Positions 4,568 through 24,752 of a stretch of DNA of 25,330 nucleotides are shown piece by piece. Each line of letters starts with the position of its first letter. Position 1 is the first letter of the stretch. The stretch spans positions 1-25,330 of IMG/VR virus record IMGVR_UViG_3300020159_001861. One strand, given 5' to 3'. The notes below the pieces were generated by a model that did no database searches, was not told the origin of the DNA, and worked only from the letters and a program-made list of their open reading frames with translations. The DNA comes from a virus. A program made the position numbers and the translations under genes.

Positions 4568-5056
4568 ATGGCAGAAGTATTAGAGTTTGATAAAATGTTT
4601 TATACCAACTTTGAACCAAAGTTAGCCAATAGGTTTATTATGGAGATAGATGGTATTGAATCATACATGATAAAAACAGCAAATAGGCCCACATTTACAT
4701 CAGAAGTAGTAACATTAGATCATATAAACATACAAAGAAAGATAAAAGGAAAATCTACTTGGGATGATATTAACATCACACTTTATGACCCAATTGTTCC
4801 ATCTGGAGCACAGCAAGTAATGGAGTGGATTAGGCAATCGCATGAATCGCTGACAGGTAGGGATGGATATGCGGCTTTTTACAAAAAGGATATCACATTT
4901 TACTTGTTAGGACCGGTTGGTGATAAAATCGAACAATGGACACTTAAAGGAGCGTTTATAAGCTCAGCAAACTTCGGTTCATTGGATTGGTCTACAAATG
5001 ATCCATTATCAATCGAACTTACACTTGCGTATGATTACGCTATTCTTGAGTATTAA
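4568..5056 (+). CDS. Tail tube protein (T4 gp19-like)
   Basis: The 162-residue protein is almost the same length as T4 gp19 (163). It should form the hexameric rings of the inner tail tube through which DNA passes. Visible family features are an N-terminal FEPKLANRFIMEIDGI segment, the central PTFTSEVVTLDHINIQRKI strand region and IEQWTLKGAFISSANFGSLD near the C-terminus, all typical of gp19-type tube proteins. It lies directly behind the sheath gene and ends at a strong intrinsic terminator (5086-5115). ATG 4568 follows an A-rich leader; no Shine-Dalgarno sequence is seen. The assignment is firm from both sequence and position. Confidence 0.95.
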   Translation: MAEVLEFDKMFYTNFEPKLANRFIMEIDGIESYMIKTANRPTFTSEVVTLDHINIQRKIKGKSTWDDINITLYDPIVPSGAQQVMEWIRQSHESLTGRDGYAAFYKKDITFYLLGPVGDKIEQWTLKGAFISSANFGSLDWSTNDPLSIELTLAYDYAILEY

Positions 5057-5202: not shown

Positions 5203-5409
5203 ATGTACATAACAAGATTAAGTATTCTAAGTGGTAACTTAAATACAATGGATATAGATATAACTCCTGAACAACTCAAATCTATCGAAGAGTTGAATGA
5301 ATTGATTCAAAATACAGTTCCACATCTTTCAGTAAGTGAACGTGAATTCCTTATGAGTGGTATAACGGATGATGAATGGGATGCGGAATTTAGCGATGAG
5401 GCTGAATAG
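5203..5409 (+). CDS. Small acidic protein of unknown function (moron-like)
   Basis: The 68-residue protein is not recognised. It carries 16 Asp/Glu against 3 Arg/Lys, a net charge near -13, and is predicted mostly helical; the last third (EREFLMSGITDDEWDAEF) is the most distinctive part. It has no signal peptide or membrane segment. A second in-frame ATG at 5248 would give 53 residues (MDIDITPEQ...), and I cannot decide between them; 5203 fits the leader length predicted from the promoter. The gene has its own host-type promoter and lies between two intrinsic terminators inside the tail cluster, so it is expressed independently of its neighbours. That layout suggests an early or lysogenic-type accessory role rather than a structural one. 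Any anti-host function is speculation. Confidence 0.7.
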   Translation: MYITRLSILSGNLNTMDIDITPEQLKSIEELNELIQNTVPHLSVSEREFLMSGITDDEWDAEFSDEAE

Positions 5410-5495: not shown

Positions 5496-6308
5496 ATGGA
5501 ACAGCAAAATGCAGAACAGCAAATCAAACGAGGGTTAAGTAGTCCTCCAGTACATTCAAATTACCCATTTCCAACAGAAATTATCAGTTTACCATCTAAG
5601 GGATTGGTATATCCGGAATCATCACCATTATCCAAAGGAGAGTTAACAATCAAGTTAATGACTGCTAAGGAAGAGGATATTCTGACATCTACCAACCTAA
5701 TTAAGAAGGGAATTCAGTTGGATAAGGTATTGGAATCAATTGTAGTTGAACCTGGTGTAAATGTAAATGATATTCTAATAGGTGATAAAAATGCAATACT
5801 GATAACATCCAGAATATTAGCATTTGGCCCTGAATATATCACTAAAATAATTGACCCATCTAGTTCAGAAGAAGTTGATGTTACAATTGATTTAACTACT
5901 ATACAGATAAAGGAAATAGATGAATCTATTTTAAATAGAAATAATGAGTATTCATTTATATTGCCTATATCAAAGACTCAAGTTAAATATAAATTACTAA
6001 CTCACGGTGACGAGCAGGCTATTAATAGGGATATTGAAGCATCTCAAAAAACTTTAAAGACCGGTAATGAGATTACGGCTAGATATCGAAGGATAATCGT
6101 TGAAGTGGATGGTAATAGAGATTTAGGACATATCAGCAATTTCGTTACAAACCGATTATTAGCAGGTGATTCCAAAGCATTGAGAAAGGAAGTAAATAGG
6201 ATTAATCCTGATTTAGACCTTAAATTCGATTATACATCCCCAATTACAGGTGAGACGGAGGCCCTTAGAATCCCGTTTGGGATAGGCTTTTTTTATCCTA
6301 CCGACTAA
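5496..6308 (+). CDS. Baseplate/tail assembly protein, T4 gp26-like (T4_baseplate family)
   Basis: The 270-residue protein has the conserved core of the gp26-like baseplate family. IISLPSKGLVYPE is at about 29-41, followed by LTIKLMTAKEEDILTSTNLI near 50-69, then an all-helical segment and a C-terminal IPFGIGFFYPTD. The T4 gp26 family is linked to baseplate hub assembly. By its place between tube and tape measure this gene also occupies the slot of tail assembly chaperones such as lambda G or P2 E. The gene ends just after a seven-T tract, and an ORF in the +1 frame continues for 76 codons (6286-6513), which suggests a frameshifted longer product. The start at 5496 follows an A-rich leader. 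The family call is good; hub component versus chaperone is unresolved. Confidence 0.8.
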   Translation: MEQQNAEQQIKRGLSSPPVHSNYPFPTEIISLPSKGLVYPESSPLSKGELTIKLMTAKEEDILTSTNLIKKGIQLDKVLESIVVEPGVNVNDILIGDKNAILITSRILAFGPEYITKIIDPSSSEEVDVTIDLTTIQIKEIDESILNRNNEYSFILPISKTQVKYKLLTHGDEQAINRDIEASQKTLKTGNEITARYRRIIVEVDGNRDLGHISNFVTNRLLAGDSKALRKEVNRINPDLDLKFDYTSPITGETEALRIPFGIGFFYPTD

Positions 6309-6513
6309 CTATTCGGTTATATTACATCAGAAGATATTTCAAATGGTGTATTATGCCAATGGTGGATTTAATTGGCATGATGTATATTATATGCCAATTA
6401 AGCTTAGAGAGTTTTATTATAGAGAACTACTTAAAGCGAAAGATACGGAGCATGAGCAAATTAATGCCGCAAGTCGTAAATCAAATACATCATCTACGGT
6501 AAGAAGAAGATAA
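6286..6513 (+). CDS. Short +1-frame ORF after gp26-like gene; probable frameshift extension (tail assembly chaperone 'T'-type)
   Basis: Relative to the gp26-like gene this frame opens after a TAG at 6283-6285 and runs to TAA at 6511-6513. It overlaps the upstream gene by 23 nt, and that overlap contains the T7 tract at 6288-6294. Alone it could start only at ATG 6343, giving 56 residues without a Shine-Dalgarno sequence. The peptide looks like real protein: a GGFNWHDVYYMPIKLREFYY segment, then a charged helix and a basic TVRRR end. The MP...R.FYY pattern resembles the C-terminal extensions of tail chaperones in contractile phages. A ribosomal +1 or -2 slip on the T7 would join it to the 270-residue protein, giving a product of about 340 residues. 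A true T6 (sequencing error) would also fuse them. The -1 frame is open too but has less protein-like composition. Confidence 0.65.
   Translation, partial: AFFILPTNYSVILHQKIFQMVYYANGGFNWHDVYYMPIKLREFYYRELLKAKDTEHEQINAASRKSNTSSTVRRR
6288..6317 (+). promoter_or_regulatory. Candidate programmed frameshift site: T7 tract plus downstream hairpin
   Basis: In the zero frame the site reads GGC TTT TTT TAT. Phe-tRNA on TTT (6291-6293) can re-pair perfectly after moving +1 (6292-6294) or -2 (6289-6291). Five nt downstream ACCGA (6300-6304) can pair with TCGGT (6313-6317), with the zero-frame stop TAA (6306-6308) in the loop. The stem is short, so stimulation is only a possibility. Confidence 0.5.
6351..6402 (+). 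other. Two mutually exclusive hairpins sharing one arm
   Basis: ATGCCAAT at 6353-6360, ATTGGCAT at 6371-6378 and ATGCCAAT at 6391-6398 allow two alternative stems. The first is 6351-6360 with 6371-6380 (10 bp with a G-U). The second is 6367-6378 with 6391-6402 (12 bp with a terminal U-G). They lie within the short +1-frame ORF, about 56 nt after the T7 tract. Confidence 0.55.
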
Positions 6514-6557: not shown

Positions 6558-6824
6558 ATGTCAAAGAAGAGAACGTTGGTAGAACTTGGTTTATTCGATA
6601 AATTAGCTAGTTCATTTTTTAAGGCTAAGGGTAATAATTCAGAAGCTGAATGGATTTCCAAAATCAGAAACACCAACCCGGAACTTGCTGATTTATGGGC
6701 AAAATGGGATACCGATATGAATAAGGCATTATCGATTGGTAGACAGGGAGTTGAAAAGTTTGCAAAAGATTTACCAAAGGAAACTGAATCAAACATAGAT
6801 AGAATTATTAAGCAATATAGATAA
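6558..6824 (+). CDS. Small phage protein of unknown function (tape-measure-adjacent)
   Basis: The 88-residue, soluble, helix-rich protein is balanced in charge and has no cysteines, membrane segment or signal peptide. I do not recognise a domain. An N-terminal LGLFDKLASSFFKAK helix is amphipathic, and the pattern SEAEWISKIRNTNPELADLW is reminiscent of small proteins found next to tail genes in marine T4-like phages, but I cannot name a family. It lies between the gp26-like/+1-frame pair and the tape measure gene with 18 nt to the latter, so it is probably co-transcribed with it and involved in tail assembly. Start ATG 6558 is 20 nt after an exact TATTTATA octamer. The antisense ORF covering it is a shadow. 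Confidence 0.7.
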   Translation: MSKKRTLVELGLFDKLASSFFKAKGNNSEAEWISKIRNTNPELADLWAKWDTDMNKALSIGRQGVEKFAKDLPKETESNIDRIIKQYR

Positions 6825-6842: not shown

Positions 6843-9800
6843 ATGGCTAAGCAAACAGTAAAACAGGATCAGGCTGATTTAAGCAATGAAGTATTATTAC
6901 TATCCGAAATTCAAAGGGAATGGGCTGATATACTGTCTAAGCAGCAACAAAGTCAAGTTTACGATAAAGAGCGATTAAAAAGTTTAAAATCGCAATACGG
7001 TACATATGATAAATTAGCTGATAGGGTTCGTGAAATAACGGATACGTTTATTACTTTAAACGAAGAAGTAGATGACCATAATAAATCTATAAAAGATTCT
7101 ATTGAAAGCTATGATGATATGGATGATGCTCTTATTAGCATCGGAAGTAGAATGGGAAAAAATAGTGCAGTATACGAAGGTATTAATCAAAAAATACTCA
7201 AATCCAAAGAAGCATTAGGTCAGATATCATCGATATTACAAGGACAAGGGCAATTAACAATAAGGCAGGAACAAAATGTAATGAATGCTGCCGAAGCATA
7301 TAAGGGATTTGTAGTAGATATTGCCGATGCAAGTAGAAAAATAAATCAAGGAAATATTTCACAAGAGGAGTATAATCAGTTAGTAAAGTCGAGTTATGAA
7401 AATCTAACCGGAATGGTTGATTTGATAGATGATTCTACAGAAGCCGGTCAACACCTTAAATCCCAATTTGAAGCTTTAGCTCAGGAGAGTGAATCTTTTT
7501 ACAATGCATCGATGAAATCGCTTGGAGCAATGCAATCATTGGATGAAATAATGGGTTCATTTAGTGGAATACCAGCATTATCAGAATTAAATAGCTTAAT
7601 AAAAACAAATACGAAGGATACACTTGCATTTAAAGCAGCTGTATTCGCATTAGGTGCAGCATTGGGTAATGCTGCATTTGAGTATTTCGGTGCTCCAATT
7701 ACCGCAGCAATGGAGCAAGATAAACAACGTGCCCAAAACAGAATTGATACCGAATCCTCTATAGGAAAAATAGCGGTAGATTCTCAATCAATACCTGCTC
7801 AAATTGAGCAAGAACGATTGGAAGCTAGACTTGATTCAGAAGGTGAGATTGCACGAATGCAATATGAAACCGCATTTATAGCTCAAAGAGTTGCAAATGA
7901 ATTCAATGCTGAAATGCAAAGTGGAGCAGCTGCGTTTGAAAGGGCAGCAAAAACAGCATTATTTGGTAAAGGAATTGGTTCAGTTGGATACGGTGCAGCA
8001 CAGCTTAACTTAATAGGTGTAGGAGCTGATACTATCGCATCGGCTATGGAAACTACATCAACTGCTATGGGAAGGATGCCATCTGCAAAATTGGCAGCTG
8101 ATATGGCAGTTATGGCTGAAAGAACTGGAGCATCGGTTGATGAAATTGTATCAATTAATGAGATGTTCCAACGAATCGATGGCACATCCGAATCCACCGC
8201 AATGAACTTATCAGAGGGATTGCGGAATATGGCAGAACAGGCAAATATTGGGCTAGGTGGATTGATGAGAGAAATTGCAGACGCATCAAAAGATGCACTA
8301 TCATACCAAATAAAATCAGGACCAGCATTAGCAAAACAAGTTGCATACGCCCAATCATTGGGTGTTAATTTCGGAGATATCGCCAAAGCCGGTAAGAGTA
8401 TGGTGATGAACTATAGCGATAGTATTAAAAAGGAGATGCAATTATCGGCAATGTTAGGTAAGAATGTAGACCTTTCCGAAGTGAGAGCTAAATTTGCAAG
8501 TGGAGATACGGCAGGTGCATTATCATCATTACAAGCACAAGGATTAGATCCGGCACAAATGGATATGTTTGCACAGGAGGCACTATCGGAAGCATTAGGT
8601 GGGTTGGATTTGAATACGTTATCGAAGCTATCACAGAATACAGGAAAAAATGTAGCACTTACTGCGGCAGACGCTAAAGCTGGAAATCAAGAGTTTATAT
8701 CAAGAACTCAAGCAGCAGAAGTAGCGTTAAACACTAAACAGGCGGTTATATCAGCTAATTCAGCAATGATAGACCAAGCGTTATCTCAGAAAATAGCCGA
8801 TTCATATATGGCTTCGGGCGAATATAAAACATTAAAAGAAAATCAAGCTGATGCAGCTAAACAAGCTGAGATATTGGCAGGTGCTATGAATGATGCTTGG
8901 ATTAAGAGCGAAGCTTTTGCTAAGCAGATGGTTGAAAGTTCTAAATTGGATTTTACAAGTGGATTAAAGCAAGCTGCAGTGCAAGGGACAGCTACGATAT
9001 TAGGTGGAGTTGCTGCTACGCTTATCAGTAATAGGGTAACCGGAGCAGGTGGTGGTGGATTATTATCTATGTTTGGTAGAGGAGGAGCTAATGCACCTGG
9101 AGGACCATCGGGCGGAAGTTCCACATTAGGTGCGCCAGTAGGAGTGGGTGGGAATTCAATGATTCCTGGCGGAGCATCCGCAGGAATGGGTGGAGCAGCT
9201 GGTGGACTTGGAGGCGCATTACAGGGTATAGCACAGGGATTGAAAGCATTCGCTAGTCCTCAAGTATTAGTTGGGTTAGCCGCAATAACAATTGCTTTAA
9301 AAGTATTAGAGCCGGTTATTGCTTCATTAGTTCCCCTTATGGTAAAACTTTCGGAAGTTATGGGTAATGTAATGGTTAAGGCTCTTGAAGTTGCCGCTCC
9401 AATTATAACATCCATATTTAATGGAATTGGAACTGTAATAAATTCAATAGGAACTGGTATTGGGAATATAATAACAAGCATTGCTGATAGTGTTTCCAAA
9501 TTTGCCGGATTAAACGCGGGAAACTTAACATTAGTAGCAGGTGGTATAACCGCCTTATCCGCAGCAGTTGCATTATTCGGAGCAGGTAGTGTATTGGGAG
9601 CACTTGGTGACTTTTTTAGTGGCGGAAGTGTATTCAATGATTTAAAAGATATATCAAATTATGCAAACCCAATAATGGCAACAGCCGTAGCGGTTAATGC
9701 GTTAGCCAGTGCGTTTGGTAGATTGAGTGGATTGGATGTAAGTGCGTTAAACAAAATACCTTGGGATGATATGGAAGATTTTGCATCAGAAGGTGGAAAA

Positions 9801-10052
9801 TTCGTATTAGCATCAAGCGGTGGAGGTAGTTTTGCACTTTCGAAAGATACTACTGATAATATTAAAAAAATGGCTACAAATACCGAAGCTATGGTTAAGT
9901 TGAATAATACTATGGTTAAACTATTAAAAGAAGGATTCTTCGGAACTTCAGAAACTACCAGCCAACTAAAGCTATATATAGATGGAAAGGATGTTAAACA
10001 ATCATTAAAACGATATACCGATAATACGAAAGGCGGTAAAAAATCAGAATAG
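6843..10052 (+). CDS. Tail tape measure protein
   Basis: At 1069 residues this is the longest gene in the window, which fits a tape measure protein that sets tail length and is ejected with DNA. Residues about 1-230 are charged, Gln-rich and coiled-coil-like. A hydrophobic segment follows at about 259-290, then long Ala-rich helices (290-730). A Gly-rich hinge lies near 732-799. Strongly hydrophobic stretches follow at about 805-836 and 895-921, as expected for the part that may enter the inner membrane. It has no clear transglycosylase or peptidase motif. Using the roughly 0.15 nm per residue seen for lambda-type tails, the tail would be about 160 nm (inference). It sits between chaperone-type and baseplate genes, the usual slot. 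Several antisense ORFs inside are composition shadows. Confidence 0.88.
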   Translation: MAKQTVKQDQADLSNEVLLLSEIQREWADILSKQQQSQVYDKERLKSLKSQYGTYDKLADRVREITDTFITLNEEVDDHNKSIKDSIESYDDMDDALISIGSRMGKNSAVYEGINQKILKSKEALGQISSILQGQGQLTIRQEQNVMNAAEAYKGFVVDIADASRKINQGNISQEEYNQLVKSSYENLTGMVDLIDDSTEAGQHLKSQFEALAQESESFYNASMKSLGAMQSLDEIMGSFSGIPALSELNSLIKTNTKDTLAFKAAVFALGAALGNAAFEYFGAPITAAMEQDKQRAQNRIDTESSIGKIAVDSQSIPAQIEQERLEARLDSEGEIARMQYETAFIAQRVANEFNAEMQSGAAAFERAAKTALFGKGIGSVGYGAAQLNLIGVGADTIASAMETTSTAMGRMPSAKLAADMAVMAERTGASVDEIVSINEMFQRIDGTSESTAMNLSEGLRNMAEQANIGLGGLMREIADASKDALSYQIKSGPALAKQVAYAQSLGVNFGDIAKAGKSMVMNYSDSIKKEMQLSAMLGKNVDLSEVRAKFASGDTAGALSSLQAQGLDPAQMDMFAQEALSEALGGLDLNTLSKLSQNTGKNVALTAADAKAGNQEFISRTQAAEVALNTKQAVISANSAMIDQALSQKIADSYMASGEYKTLKENQADAAKQAEILAGAMNDAWIKSEAFAKQMVESSKLDFTSGLKQAAVQGTATILGGVAATLISNRVTGAGGGGLLSMFGRGGANAPGGPSGGSSTLGAPVGVGGNSMIPGGASAGMGGAAGGLGGALQGIAQGLKAFASPQVLVGLAAITIALKVLEPVIASLVPLMVKLSEVMGNVMVKALEVAAPIITSIFNGIGTVINSIGTGIGNIITSIADSVSKFAGLNAGNLTLVAGGITALSAAVALFGAGSVLGALGDFFSGGSVFNDLKDISNYANPIMATAVAVNALASAFGRLSGLDVSALNKIPWDDMEDFASEGGKFVLASSGGGSFALSKDTTDNIKKMATNTEAMVKLNNTMVKLLKEGFFGTSETTSQLKLYIDGKDVKQSLKRYTDNTKGGKKSE

Positions 10053-14634: not shown

Positions 14635-14666
14635 TTTGTATTTCTCATTAAAATGTTGTATATTCG
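14635..14666 (+). promoter_or_regulatory. Host-type promoter for the polymerase-like gene, apparently leaderless
   Basis: TTTG (14635-14638) and TATATTCG (14659-14666) are separated by 20 nt, matching the other three host-type promoters; the -7 box has one mismatch to TATATTTG. The expected start of transcription is about 14670-14674, at or next to ATG 14674. Confidence 0.6.
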
Positions 14667-14673
14667 TAGGAAT

Positions 14674-15939
14674 ATGATACTGATAGAAAATAACAACAGC
14701 CTTTTTGAGTTTTACAAATCAAATGTAACACCCTTACTAGCGTTTCCAATATGGAGTTCGCCCAAAGCACATGAACATGATGCAAGTATATCCTTTCTAT
14801 ATATACGAACATACGACAATCATTATTTAATAAACTTTAATCACATCGATGCAGATACGTGCGATTTGATTAATTTTGATAAATTGATTAAGCCTGATAC
14901 ATTAGTATATGGAAATCGCTATTTAGCCACTAAGGGGTTGGATTATGAGTGGGTATATTTCGAACACTATGGTAAACCGTTCATACTCAATGAGTTCGCT
15001 GAAGAGGTTTATAAGGGGTATAAAAGCGATTTTAAATATCTAAACGATTGTATACCAATGATGCGTTGGATTAATACCTTAAAACGAATACCAATTATAC
15101 CTATAATTAAACATTCGTATAGAGCTTACTCCGATTCCATTACATTACTTGGTAAGTTGGAATCATCGGGCGTAAAAGTGGATGTAGAATCATTTGTGAA
15201 TCGATTTAACTTTAATAGGAAGTATTTATCTAACGGATTCGCTTATACCAAATATAACCCATATACCATTACAGGTAGACCTAGTAATAGACATTTAGGT
15301 GTTAATTGGGCTGCAATGAATAAATCCGATGGAAGTAGATCTAATATTGTTAGTAGATTTGAAGGTGGTACCCTTATTCAATTTGATTATGAATCGTATC
15401 ATATTCGGATTATTGGAAAACTAATTGGATATAAATTCCCAGTCGGAGAAACGGCACATGAGCATCTTGCTAAATACTATGGAGTTACGATTGAGGAATC
15501 AAAATCCCTATCATTTAAGTATCTGTATGGCGGTTTAGATGAATTCGCACGGACTATTCCATTTTTCCAACAAGTAGATGTATATATTAAAGAACTGTAT
15601 GAACAATTCATACTCAATGAATACCTAATAACTCCGATGTATAAGAGAAAGATTCCATTACAGCGTATAGAAGGTGTTACTGAGCAAAAAGTATTTAATT
15701 ACCTTTTACAGGCATTGGAAACGGAAATAAATTACAGTAAGATGCAGGAAGTAATGGATAAATTAGAAAGTAGAAGTTCAAAATTAATATTATATACCTA
15801 TGATGCATTTCTAATAGATATGCACCCAGATGATAGAGATACGGTAATTAATGAATTGGTAGATATATTAGAAAGGGGTGGATTTCCAGTTAGGATATTT
15901 GAGGGTTTGAATTACCATAGCTTGAATAAATTATCCTAA
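14674..15939 (+). CDS. Family A DNA polymerase-like protein, short and divergent
   Basis: The 421-residue protein has the palm and fingers motifs of Pol I-type polymerases. There is TITGRPSN (the TGR region), then motif A as FDYESYHIR (DYxxxxxR). Motif B is SKSLSFKYLYGG (KxxxFxxxYG) and motif C is YTYDAFLID in place of HDE. Both catalytic Asp positions are kept. The Arg four residues before the motif B Lys, which helps bind the incoming triphosphate in E. coli Pol I, is replaced by Ile. The Glu of HDE is Ala. The N-terminal ~160 residues show no clear 3'-5' exonuclease motifs. I start the gene at ATG 14674, not 14653, because the earlier ATG lies between the two promoter boxes. It could be the replicative enzyme or a specialised paralogue; the rest of the genome would decide. 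Confidence 0.72.
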   Translation: MILIENNNSLFEFYKSNVTPLLAFPIWSSPKAHEHDASISFLYIRTYDNHYLINFNHIDADTCDLINFDKLIKPDTLVYGNRYLATKGLDYEWVYFEHYGKPFILNEFAEEVYKGYKSDFKYLNDCIPMMRWINTLKRIPIIPIIKHSYRAYSDSITLLGKLESSGVKVDVESFVNRFNFNRKYLSNGFAYTKYNPYTITGRPSNRHLGVNWAAMNKSDGSRSNIVSRFEGGTLIQFDYESYHIRIIGKLIGYKFPVGETAHEHLAKYYGVTIEESKSLSFKYLYGGLDEFARTIPFFQQVDVYIKELYEQFILNEYLITPMYKRKIPLQRIEGVTEQKVFNYLLQALETEINYSKMQEVMDKLESRSSKLILYTYDAFLIDMHPDDRDTVINELVDILERGGFPVRIFEGLNYHSLNKLS

Positions 15940-22144: not shown

Positions 22145-22459
22145 ATGGCAAAAACAGCAGACAAATTAGCTAAACCATTAGGGGATAGAGTTTTATTGAA
22201 GGAATCCGAAGCTCAAAGTGATAAAACATCCGGAGGTATTTATATACCTGATAGCGCTAAATTGGAGGATGTTAAGAGAGCAGAGGTGGTTAAAGTAGGA
22301 CCTGGTATTTATACACAAAGTGGTGTATTAATTCCAATGAGTGTAACTGAAGGGGATACTGTAATTATACCACCATATCACCAAGGTAATGAAATAAAGG
22401 TAAATGGAGAAAAATACACATTACTACGTGAATCGGAAATTTTAATGGTATTGAAATAA
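22145..22459 (+). CDS. groES: GroES-type co-chaperonin (Cpn10)
   Basis: The 104-residue protein has the full Cpn10 plan: KPLGDRVLLKE (10-20), the mobile loop that contacts GroEL (about 22-37, DKTSGGIYIPDSA, with the usual GGI(Y/V)(I/L)P), then AEVVKVGPGI, GDTVIIPPY and a C-terminal YTLLRESEILMVL. It should cap the host GroEL ring, since no GroEL is seen here. In T4 the equivalent job, folding the capsid protein, is done by gp31, which has little sequence likeness to GroES. This one is much closer to bacterial GroES and may have been acquired from a host. It lies between the 50-aa ORF and a small basic gene within the replication operon. A T8 tract (22460-22467) follows but without a hairpin. 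Confidence 0.93.
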   Translation: MAKTADKLAKPLGDRVLLKESEAQSDKTSGGIYIPDSAKLEDVKRAEVVKVGPGIYTQSGVLIPMSVTEGDTVIIPPYHQGNEIKVNGEKYTLLRESEILMVLK

Positions 22460-22768: not shown

Positions 22769-24123
22769 TGGAAGCAGTAGATACACTAACCAAATATGGC
22801 AGTTCGTATCAATCTAAAGTAGTGGCTTCTCTTATTTCGGACACCAAATTTTTAGAACAGGTAACTGAAATTACAAAACCAGCTTTTTTTGAATCACAAG
22901 CCAACCAATGGATTATAGGACAATTACAATCGTATTTTTCCGAATACCATACATCGCCTACTATGGAGGTGTTTAAGATAAAAGTTGGCGATATTGATGA
23001 TAAGATTCTAAAGCAGATGGTGGTAGAGCAATTAAAAATTGTTTACCTACAAATTGGTGCAGATGATTTACCATATGTTAAAAACGAATATCTTACATTT
23101 TCCAAAAATCAAAGAGTAAAAGATGCCTTATTAAAATCTGTAGATTTACTAAAAGCCGGAAATTACGATAAAATCATCGATACGATGATGGCAGCATCCA
23201 AAGTTGGTTTAGAAAATGATTTAGGTTTAGACTATGTCGATAATTTTGAATCGATTATAGAAGATGTAAAACGTAATTCTATATCCACCGGATGGGATGT
23301 AGTGGATGAATTAATGGATGGTGGATTAGGTCCAGGTGAATTGGGAGTAGTAATGGCTCCATCTGGAATTGGCAAAAGTTGGTTCTTATCGAAGATTGCA
23401 TGTTCAGCTATACAAATGGGTATGAATGTATTACACTATACTTTGGAATTATCTGAAAATTACGTTGGACAAAGATATACAACAATTCTAACAGGTATAC
23501 AGACAACCGAACACAAAGAACGTAAGGATGAAATAATTCGTAAAATCAAACAAACATCAGGCAGAGTTCGTATCAAATACTATCCACCACAATTCGCAAC
23601 ATCAAAAACGTTATCCGCTCATATAGAAAAATTACGAGCAACTGGATTTAATCCTAATTTAATTATTATAGATTACGCTGATTTGCTAAAATCATCAAAT
23701 AGTAGAGATGGGTTATATGCAGAATTGGGTGGTATCTACGAAGAGTTAAGGGGATTGAGTGGTGAAGCGGGGATACCTATTTGGACAGCAACACAGACAA
23801 ACCGTGCAGCTATTGACCATGAAGTTATTCAAGCGGATTCTGTAGGTGATTCGTATAAGAAAGTTCAAACCGCTGATTTCATTATGAGTGTTAGCAGAAA
23901 AACAAAAGATAAATTATCAAATACAGGTCGTATTCATATTGTAAAGAATCGATTTGGACCAGATGGTATGACTTTTCCGGCTAAGATTGATACGTTTCAT
24001 GGTATTATGGATGTATTTGCAGCAGCATCGGCAGATGGTATAATTGCGCAAAAAGAATCTAAAAATGGAGAAAATTTAGAAAAGAAACTATTGCACAAAA
24101 AATATGTGGAAAATATGGGCTAA
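22768..24123 (+). CDS. Replicative DNA helicase, DnaB/T4 gp41-type
   Basis: The 451-residue protein (T4 gp41 is 475) should form a hexamer that unwinds DNA at the fork in the 5'-3' direction. The N-terminal ~150 residues are helical, as in DnaB N-terminal domains. The RecA-like motor starts at STGWDVVDELMDGGLGPGEL (173-192). It has Walker A APSGIGKS (197-204), the TLELSE segment with a likely catalytic Glu (E227), and Walker B LIIIDYADLL (298-307). The ATQTNR segment is at 341-346 and a basic VKNRFGPDG loop lies near 400. Its start codon overlaps the stop of the preceding basic protein, and its own stop overlaps the Mom-like start (TAATG both times). No primase domain is fused, so primase must lie elsewhere. 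Confidence 0.92.
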   Translation: MEAVDTLTKYGSSYQSKVVASLISDTKFLEQVTEITKPAFFESQANQWIIGQLQSYFSEYHTSPTMEVFKIKVGDIDDKILKQMVVEQLKIVYLQIGADDLPYVKNEYLTFSKNQRVKDALLKSVDLLKAGNYDKIIDTMMAASKVGLENDLGLDYVDNFESIIEDVKRNSISTGWDVVDELMDGGLGPGELGVVMAPSGIGKSWFLSKIACSAIQMGMNVLHYTLELSENYVGQRYTTILTGIQTTEHKERKDEIIRKIKQTSGRVRIKYYPPQFATSKTLSAHIEKLRATGFNPNLIIIDYADLLKSSNSRDGLYAELGGIYEELRGLSGEAGIPIWTATQTNRAAIDHEVIQADSVGDSYKKVQTADFIMSVSRKTKDKLSNTGRIHIVKNRFGPDGMTFPAKIDTFHGIMDVFAAASADGIIAQKESKNGENLEKKLLHKKYVENMG

Positions 24124-24752
24124 TGAGTGAAGTAAAAAGTTATATTGTTGAGGAAACCAGTTTTAATCAAACTGTTAGAAAGTTTCTTAAAAAATGGCAC
24201 TATTCTGATTATGTAAATATACAAGCTAAACACACATTTTGCTTATTTAAACTTGGAAAGTTCGACCTGCCGGAAATGATTGGTGTATGTATTTACACAC
24301 GCCCGGCAGGTCCATCTGCTGCGCAATCCTATTACCCATCTAAGCCAGATAAAGTTTTAGAGTTAAGGAGATTATGCTTAATAGATGATACACCGAAAAA
24401 CGCAGAATCGTATTTTATTGGTAAAACCCTAAAGTGGCTTACTCATAAAACTGATTGGGAATTCGTAATATCTTATGCAGATCCTGAACAAGGACATAGT
24501 GGAGTTATATATAGAGCATCTAATTTTAAATACTTGGGAAACACTAAGCCGGGAAAAACATTGGAAGTTGATGGCAAAGCATTTCACATCAGAACCTTAT
24601 CAATGTTAGATAGACCATATGGAGTTGAAATAAACAGACGATATAAGGAAAAAGATGAAGGTGTTAAAATAATAGAAACACTACCGAAACACATTTATAC
24701 ATACGATTTAAGAGGAAAATATATATCAAAAAAACAGAAAAATCATAAATAA
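24123..24752 (+). CDS. Mom-like DNA adenine modification protein (GNAT fold)
   Basis: The 209-residue protein resembles phage Mu Mom and its relatives, GNAT-fold proteins that attach a carbamoylmethyl-type group to adenine in phage DNA. The core pattern is clear: VLELRRLCLIDDTPKNAESY (78-97), a FIGKTLKWL helix, then FVISYADPEQGHSG (114-127) and VIYRASNFKYLGN (128-140). This fits the usual L-R-L....PkN-S-f...L and SYADP..GH.G-iYqA-nf-y-G motifs of the family. The modification would protect phage DNA from restriction; the cofactor and exact chemistry are not readable from sequence. It is the last gene of the helicase operon (1-nt overlap), an early or middle setting, whereas Mu mom is late. Related GNAT proteins could have other substrates. 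Confidence 0.78.
   Translation: MSEVKSYIVEETSFNQTVRKFLKKWHYSDYVNIQAKHTFCLFKLGKFDLPEMIGVCIYTRPAGPSAAQSYYPSKPDKVLELRRLCLIDDTPKNAESYFIGKTLKWLTHKTDWEFVISYADPEQGHSGVIYRASNFKYLGNTKPGKTLEVDGKAFHIRTLSMLDRPYGVEINRRYKEKDEGVKIIETLPKHIYTYDLRGKYISKKQKNHK

Follow-up and report, generated by a model that had tools for sequence, protein, structure and literature searches.

The gp26-like gene at positions 5496 to 6308 of the window (the whole stretch of viral DNA that was analysed, 25,330 nucleotides of IMG/VR record IMGVR_UViG_3300020159_001861) and an open reading frame (ORF) that overlaps its 3′ end in the +1 frame very probably encode a tail assembly chaperone pair. The two products, a short protein (N) and a rarer fusion (N+T), would be made by a +1 programmed frameshift, a reading to which we assign a probability of about 88% on the strength of comparisons among related loci. 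The features of the locus are listed below.

4568–5056, forward strand: tail tube protein (gp19-like), the upstream neighbour, named by synteny with the annotated Gp19 tail tube gene of Mel-JY01
5496–6308, forward strand: N, the probable gp26-like short tail assembly chaperone, zero frame, 270 amino acids (PF12322, phrog_150, AlphaFold2 model)
6288–6294, forward strand: predicted slip site TTT TTT T, with UUU in the P site and U as the next base
6289–6513, forward strand: T, the +1-frame C-terminal extension, with its stop codon at 6511–6513, conserved in 182 of 186 loci
6300–6317, forward strand: hairpin of the original prediction, not supported as part of the signal
6306–6308, forward strand: zero-frame stop codon TAA
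6343–6345, forward strand: internal ATG, a candidate alternative start for T that was judged not to be the normal one
6843–10052, forward strand: probable tape measure protein, the downstream neighbour, named by position and length

Re-reading of the ORFs confirmed the layout on which the original prediction was built, namely a zero-frame gene ending at 6308, a +1 ORF from 6286 to 6513 and an overlap of 23 nt. The 3′ end of the N gene reads GGC TTT TTT TAT CCT ACC GAC TAA, and the +1 frame has a TAG at 6283–6285, after which it is open. Because the +1 frame is closed at 6283–6285 and the zero frame stops at 6308, a shift in the window must fall within 6286–6308. The T7 tract at 6288–6294 is the sole homopolymer of note in that interval, in agreement with the earlier statement that the overlap holds one obvious slip site. 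T7 is not rare in this AT-rich window (24 tracts on both strands vs 32 expected), so the tract by itself proves nothing.

In the mechanism that we propose, gene 5496–6308 would make abundant N. At GGC TTT TTT TAT, where tRNA-Phe occupies UUU in the P site, a fraction of ribosomes would move forward by one base to the UUU that overlaps it, bypass the stop codon at 6306 and read the +1 frame to 6513. The fusion would be the rarer product, with a predicted length of about 338 amino acids (266 N residues plus 72). By analogy with lambda gpG/gpGT, N may coat the tape measure protein while T recruits tail tube subunits, and both N and N+T would be missing from the finished tail.

The assignment of N draws on family matches, fold and gene order. 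N matches the PF12322 T4_baseplate family, which includes T4 gp26 (E 3.8e-6, 27.2 bits vs a cut-off of 24.5, with scores of up to 100 bits among its relatives), and phrog_150 baseplate hub (E 1.7e-8). N and T were modelled apart with AlphaFold2. With the N model (pLDDT 88), the first-ranked Foldseek match was the HK97 tail assembly chaperone (2ob9). Alignment of the same model to 704 solved chains with VIA gave four that reach Z 2, the top two being YqbN (3klu; Z 5.1, 81 residues aligned, rmsd 3.6), which we take to be the tail assembly chaperone of a phage-like element, and HK97 2ob9 (Z 4.9, 96 aligned, rmsd 4.1); these are modest scores, below Z 8, for which chance likeness is possible. A sequence search of the PDB gave no meaningful match. 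Gene order in the window, and in relatives with annotation, places the N gene between the tail tube and tape measure genes, and a tape measure gene is annotated downstream at the equivalent loci of Flavobacterium and Listeria phages. The fold matches and this position together make a tail assembly chaperone the best reading of N.

Several other ORFs of the window were recorded. Between the tail tube and chaperone genes lies a 68-amino acid ORF (5203–5409; phrog_20898, unknown function, E 1e-14), and between T and the tape measure gene one of 88 amino acids (6558–6824) for which no family was matched; at the position equivalent to the latter, a small ORF of unknown function is present in Mel-JY01. 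Elsewhere the window encodes a GroES-like co-chaperonin (22145–22459; PF00166, E 4e-26), a Mom-family protein (24123–24752; PF25680, E 4e-35), a family of DNA modification enzymes known from phage Mu, and a 428-amino acid protein (14653–15939) whose C-terminal part only has a weak match to family A DNA polymerases (E 0.001, below the cut-off).

Alignment of related loci gave strong support to the idea that a frameshift fuses the gp26-like protein to a hidden ORF. We collected 186 related loci with the N gene, among which some contigs are present twice and 151 site sequences are distinct; representatives below 90% identity numbered 129, and further thinning to 70% and 60% left 64 and 33. With an HMM of the +1 ORF, a +1-frame T that overlaps the 3′ end of the N gene was detected in 182 of the 186 loci, and seven T's are present in 119 of the 129 representatives, so that both the frame change and the T-tract proved to be conserved, the outcome against which the original prediction was to be checked. 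Related contigs were binned with Flavobacteriales and other Bacteroidota, and the +1 arrangement is also found in cultured phages of Flavobacterium, Microcystis, Bacillus and Listeria. In the homologous genes, T7 occurs off-site once per 110,460 positions, yet it stands at the slip position in most loci; the site rises above chance because it is conserved at this position and accompanied by the +1 ORF. The frame relation and its conservation, like the slip site and the direction preference treated below, are properties of the sequences themselves. A sequencing error or gene decay, which through a single-base change would likewise split one ORF in two, is refuted by the recurrence of the arrangement across many assemblies and independently sequenced cultured phages.

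Codon-level conservation changes phase at the site. In an ungapped comparison around the site, conservation upstream peaks at codon position 2 of the N frame (0.79 bits, vs 0.28 for position 3), and downstream the peak is at the second position of the +1-frame codons (0.82 bits). The switch coincides with the T-run, and every phase scores high from +0 to +14. Because the switch covers the stretch that precedes ATG 6343, this stretch is probably translated in the +1 frame.

Four loci are exceptions to the +1 T. RM378 has a +1 ORF that the HMM does not match, and in LR756511 the −1 frame carries T and the site is T_TTT_TTC. In the remaining two, L180 and L185, the slip site is lost (TTC TTG TAT and TTC CTT TGG), and an ATG directly downstream of the N stop opens a separate ORF for T. 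The N tree puts these two loci inside the +1 group, adjoining Flavobacterium phage immuto, which is the place expected if one mechanism replaced another. Since their T has its own ATG, the fusion is not indispensable in every relative. The separate T ORFs (L180:3223-3543, and near 3224 in L185) carry a new N-terminal stretch.

The sites themselves bear on the direction of the shift. Among distinct loci the site reads TTT TTT TGG in 82, TTT TTT TAC in 44, TTC TTT TGG in eight and TTT TTT TAT, as in the window, in four, with rare others. UUU is followed by U or C in all 129 representatives, so tRNA-Phe can re-pair after a +1 move in every one. The original prediction had allowed a −2 move as well, and on the T7 of the window tRNA-Phe can indeed re-pair two bases back as well as one forward; a −2 slip, known for phage Mu (PMC5009743), would enter the same frame and add one Phe. 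However, the natural variants TTC TTT TGG, TTC TTT TAC, TTT CTA TTC and TTC TTT CGT keep the frame relation although −2 pairing is impossible there (UCU and the like), whereas +1 pairing is intact. Variants that allow +1 and not −2 indicate that the shift is +1, and we regard a −2 slip as improbable. Variants such as TTC TTT TGG also keep the frame relation with a shorter run, so a long T-run is not required.

Codon choice around the site further separates +1 from −1 shifting. The second Phe codon is TTT in 126 of the 129 representatives and never TTC, while Phe elsewhere is encoded by TTT in 81% of cases. A T precedes the run in only two of the 129, vs an expected 68 based on the synonymous codons of these genes, and the deficit persists at lower identity (1/64 vs 31.7 expected at 70%; 0/33 vs 14.6 at 60%). 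The avoidance is not one inherited state, because it is spread over 12 to 16 different codons. A T at this position would create T_TTT_TTT, a −1 heptamer; all but one of the loci that have it carry TTC first, which spoils the heptamer, the exception being L159, with T before the run and nine T's. Judged by these counts, the −1 heptamer T_TTT_TTY is avoided in the +1 group. The site of the window, C_TTT_TTT, is no such heptamer, and the −1 frame, which is open for a median of nine codons in relatives, holds no T domain.

We also considered that T might be a separate small protein, translated from ATG 6343 or by re-initiation. The window does contain this ATG, a T ORF of its own is found in each of L180 and L185, and an ORF of this kind is annotated as gp51 in the S-PM2 record. 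However, the AlphaFold2 model of T (pLDDT 84) has three helices, of which the first spans residues 9–23; ATG 6343 is residue 20 of the T ORF and would cut this helix, half of which is formed by residues that precede the ATG and are conserved in the +1 frame. Furthermore, 83 of 139 relatives have no ATG between the slip site and the T core motif, and 49 have no ATG, GTG or TTG there. A separate gene would need neither the overlap nor the T7, and the loci with a separate T, L180 and L185, are exactly those that have no slip site. We therefore judge a separate start to be slightly less probable even than the −2 slip.

The Pfam family DUF6760, whose function is unknown, was weakly matched by 17 of 83 T domains (best E 1.5e-4), a possible link to other contractile systems, and some T domains weakly match the phrog_634 baseplate hub assembly catalyst. 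A fold search with the T model returned no confident match, nor did the T-domain HMM match T4 gp26 or gp51 significantly. When the fused N+T and gp51 were aligned as profiles, the T core fell on the C-terminal end of gp51, at a low probability (5.8%, E 0.0065).

Slippage of RNA polymerase on the T-run, yielding mRNAs with altered T counts, is less probable than a −2 slip or a separate start. A homopolymer of seven in an AT-rich gene is compatible with it, but the frame relation is kept at runs of only three or four (TTTCTTT, TTCTTTT and TTCTTTC) and runs longer than seven are rare (three loci). Moreover, the two rules set by codon phase, avoidance of T ahead of the run and TTT rather than TTC as the second codon, are rules of tRNA re-pairing and not of polymerase slippage. 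Frameshifting by +1 during translation thus remains our preferred reading.

A short hairpin just past the slip site had been proposed as part of the signal. It is present in the window, where 6300–6304 pair with 6313–6317 (−5 kcal/mol), and with a z of −0.8 it is not unusual; in relatives, 58.6% of cells are paired, no more than in shuffles. We therefore dropped it from the signal. The upstream GGG was rejected as an internal Shine-Dalgarno sequence, as this triplet encodes Gly and its third base varies, and a search across the relatives for a conserved stimulator, either RNA structure or internal Shine-Dalgarno, found none.

A second group of homologues would shift in the opposite direction. 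In S-PM2-type cyanophages, gp26 aligns with N and has TTT TTC at the equivalent Phe-Phe position, with an open −1 frame, in 80 of 80 loci, and it is this −1 frame that holds the T domain. These loci resemble the window in having the T domain at the matching Phe-Phe position and differ in the −1 shift at T_TTT_TTC, with C for T in the second Phe codon and a T before the run. Among distinct −1 sites a T precedes the run in 61 of 61; one was scored T_TTC_TTC, probably from taking the second Phe pair of LR756511. Atu_ph07 and PA5oct likewise have −1 at T_TTT_TTC. In S-PM2, gp51 is annotated as a separate gene and looks like the −1-frame T part of gp26 (L199:6191-6364, which is S-PM2 151190-151363; IMG/VR loci L200-L279).

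T4 differs from both groups. Its two PF12322 genes, gp26 and the longer gp51, stand apart on opposite strands and involve no frameshift, where the window has one N gene with an overlapping T; PF12322 matches and proposed chaperone roles (PMC9024508) are common to both. PF12322 covers residues 1–201 of the 249 of T4 gp51, which together with the literature that PRFect cites suggests that gp51 is an N-like protein with a C-terminal extension. Published tail-chaperone frameshifts are −1, −2 or +1 depending on the phage, with T4 listed as an exception (PMC5009743). The lambda (−1) and Mu (−2; PMC5009743) shifts differ from the predicted +1 shift of the window group on UUU_U/C and share no sequence with it. 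The tail chaperone of the archaeal myovirus HSTV-2 resembles the window in its shift, which is reported as very likely +1 (PMC5009743). Bacterial RF2 also relies on a +1 slip of the P-site tRNA, on CUU_U or, in a minority of species, UUU_U (PMC5009743). Unlike RF2, the window group has no stop codon in the A site (UAU here, UGG or UAY in relatives) and no conserved internal Shine-Dalgarno that we could see.

Vladimirov et al. 2022 reportedly identified T4-like tail assembly chaperone genes and argued for a mechanism other than frameshift; in the account that PRFect gives of that work, the mechanism is one short gene accompanied by a longer gene for the fusion. PMC12846349 mentions poly-T −1 signals for the chaperone genes of T4-like phages and cites Vladimirov et al. 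2022 for them. The statement in the original prediction that no case was described for a T4 gp26-like gene was therefore too strong, and the −1 shift of S-PM2-type gp26/gp51 bears on the same point. An incomplete literature search found no published description of the +1 form in gp26-like chaperone genes. Tail-chaperone frameshifting and poly-T signals in T4-like chaperones are thus known, and the +1 form appears to be new as far as the accessible literature extends.

On balance, and with less assurance than for the frameshift itself, we favor the broader view that a widespread +1 frameshift in T4-related phages occurs on a bare UUU_U, without a stop codon, conserved structure or Shine-Dalgarno-like stimulator, at codons selected against the −1 heptamer. 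One homologous gene would then reach two chaperone forms by four routes (+1, −1, a separate T gene, and, as in T4, a separate long gene), and the direction of the slip would be linked to two bases, the one ahead of the run and the third of one Phe codon.

Among phages with tail-chaperone frameshifting, which is otherwise conserved, T4 has long been counted as the exception, and recent work has linked its chaperone genes to another mechanism. Here, relatives of one gene very probably use +1 or −1 at one Phe-Phe position, and two bases set the +1 loci apart from the −1 loci, which together offer natural material for testing what sets the direction of the slip. Small ORFs that are now unannotated or misannotated, S-PM2 gp51 among them, can in many cases be annotated correctly, and proteins now labelled baseplate hub gain an inferred function as tail assembly chaperones.
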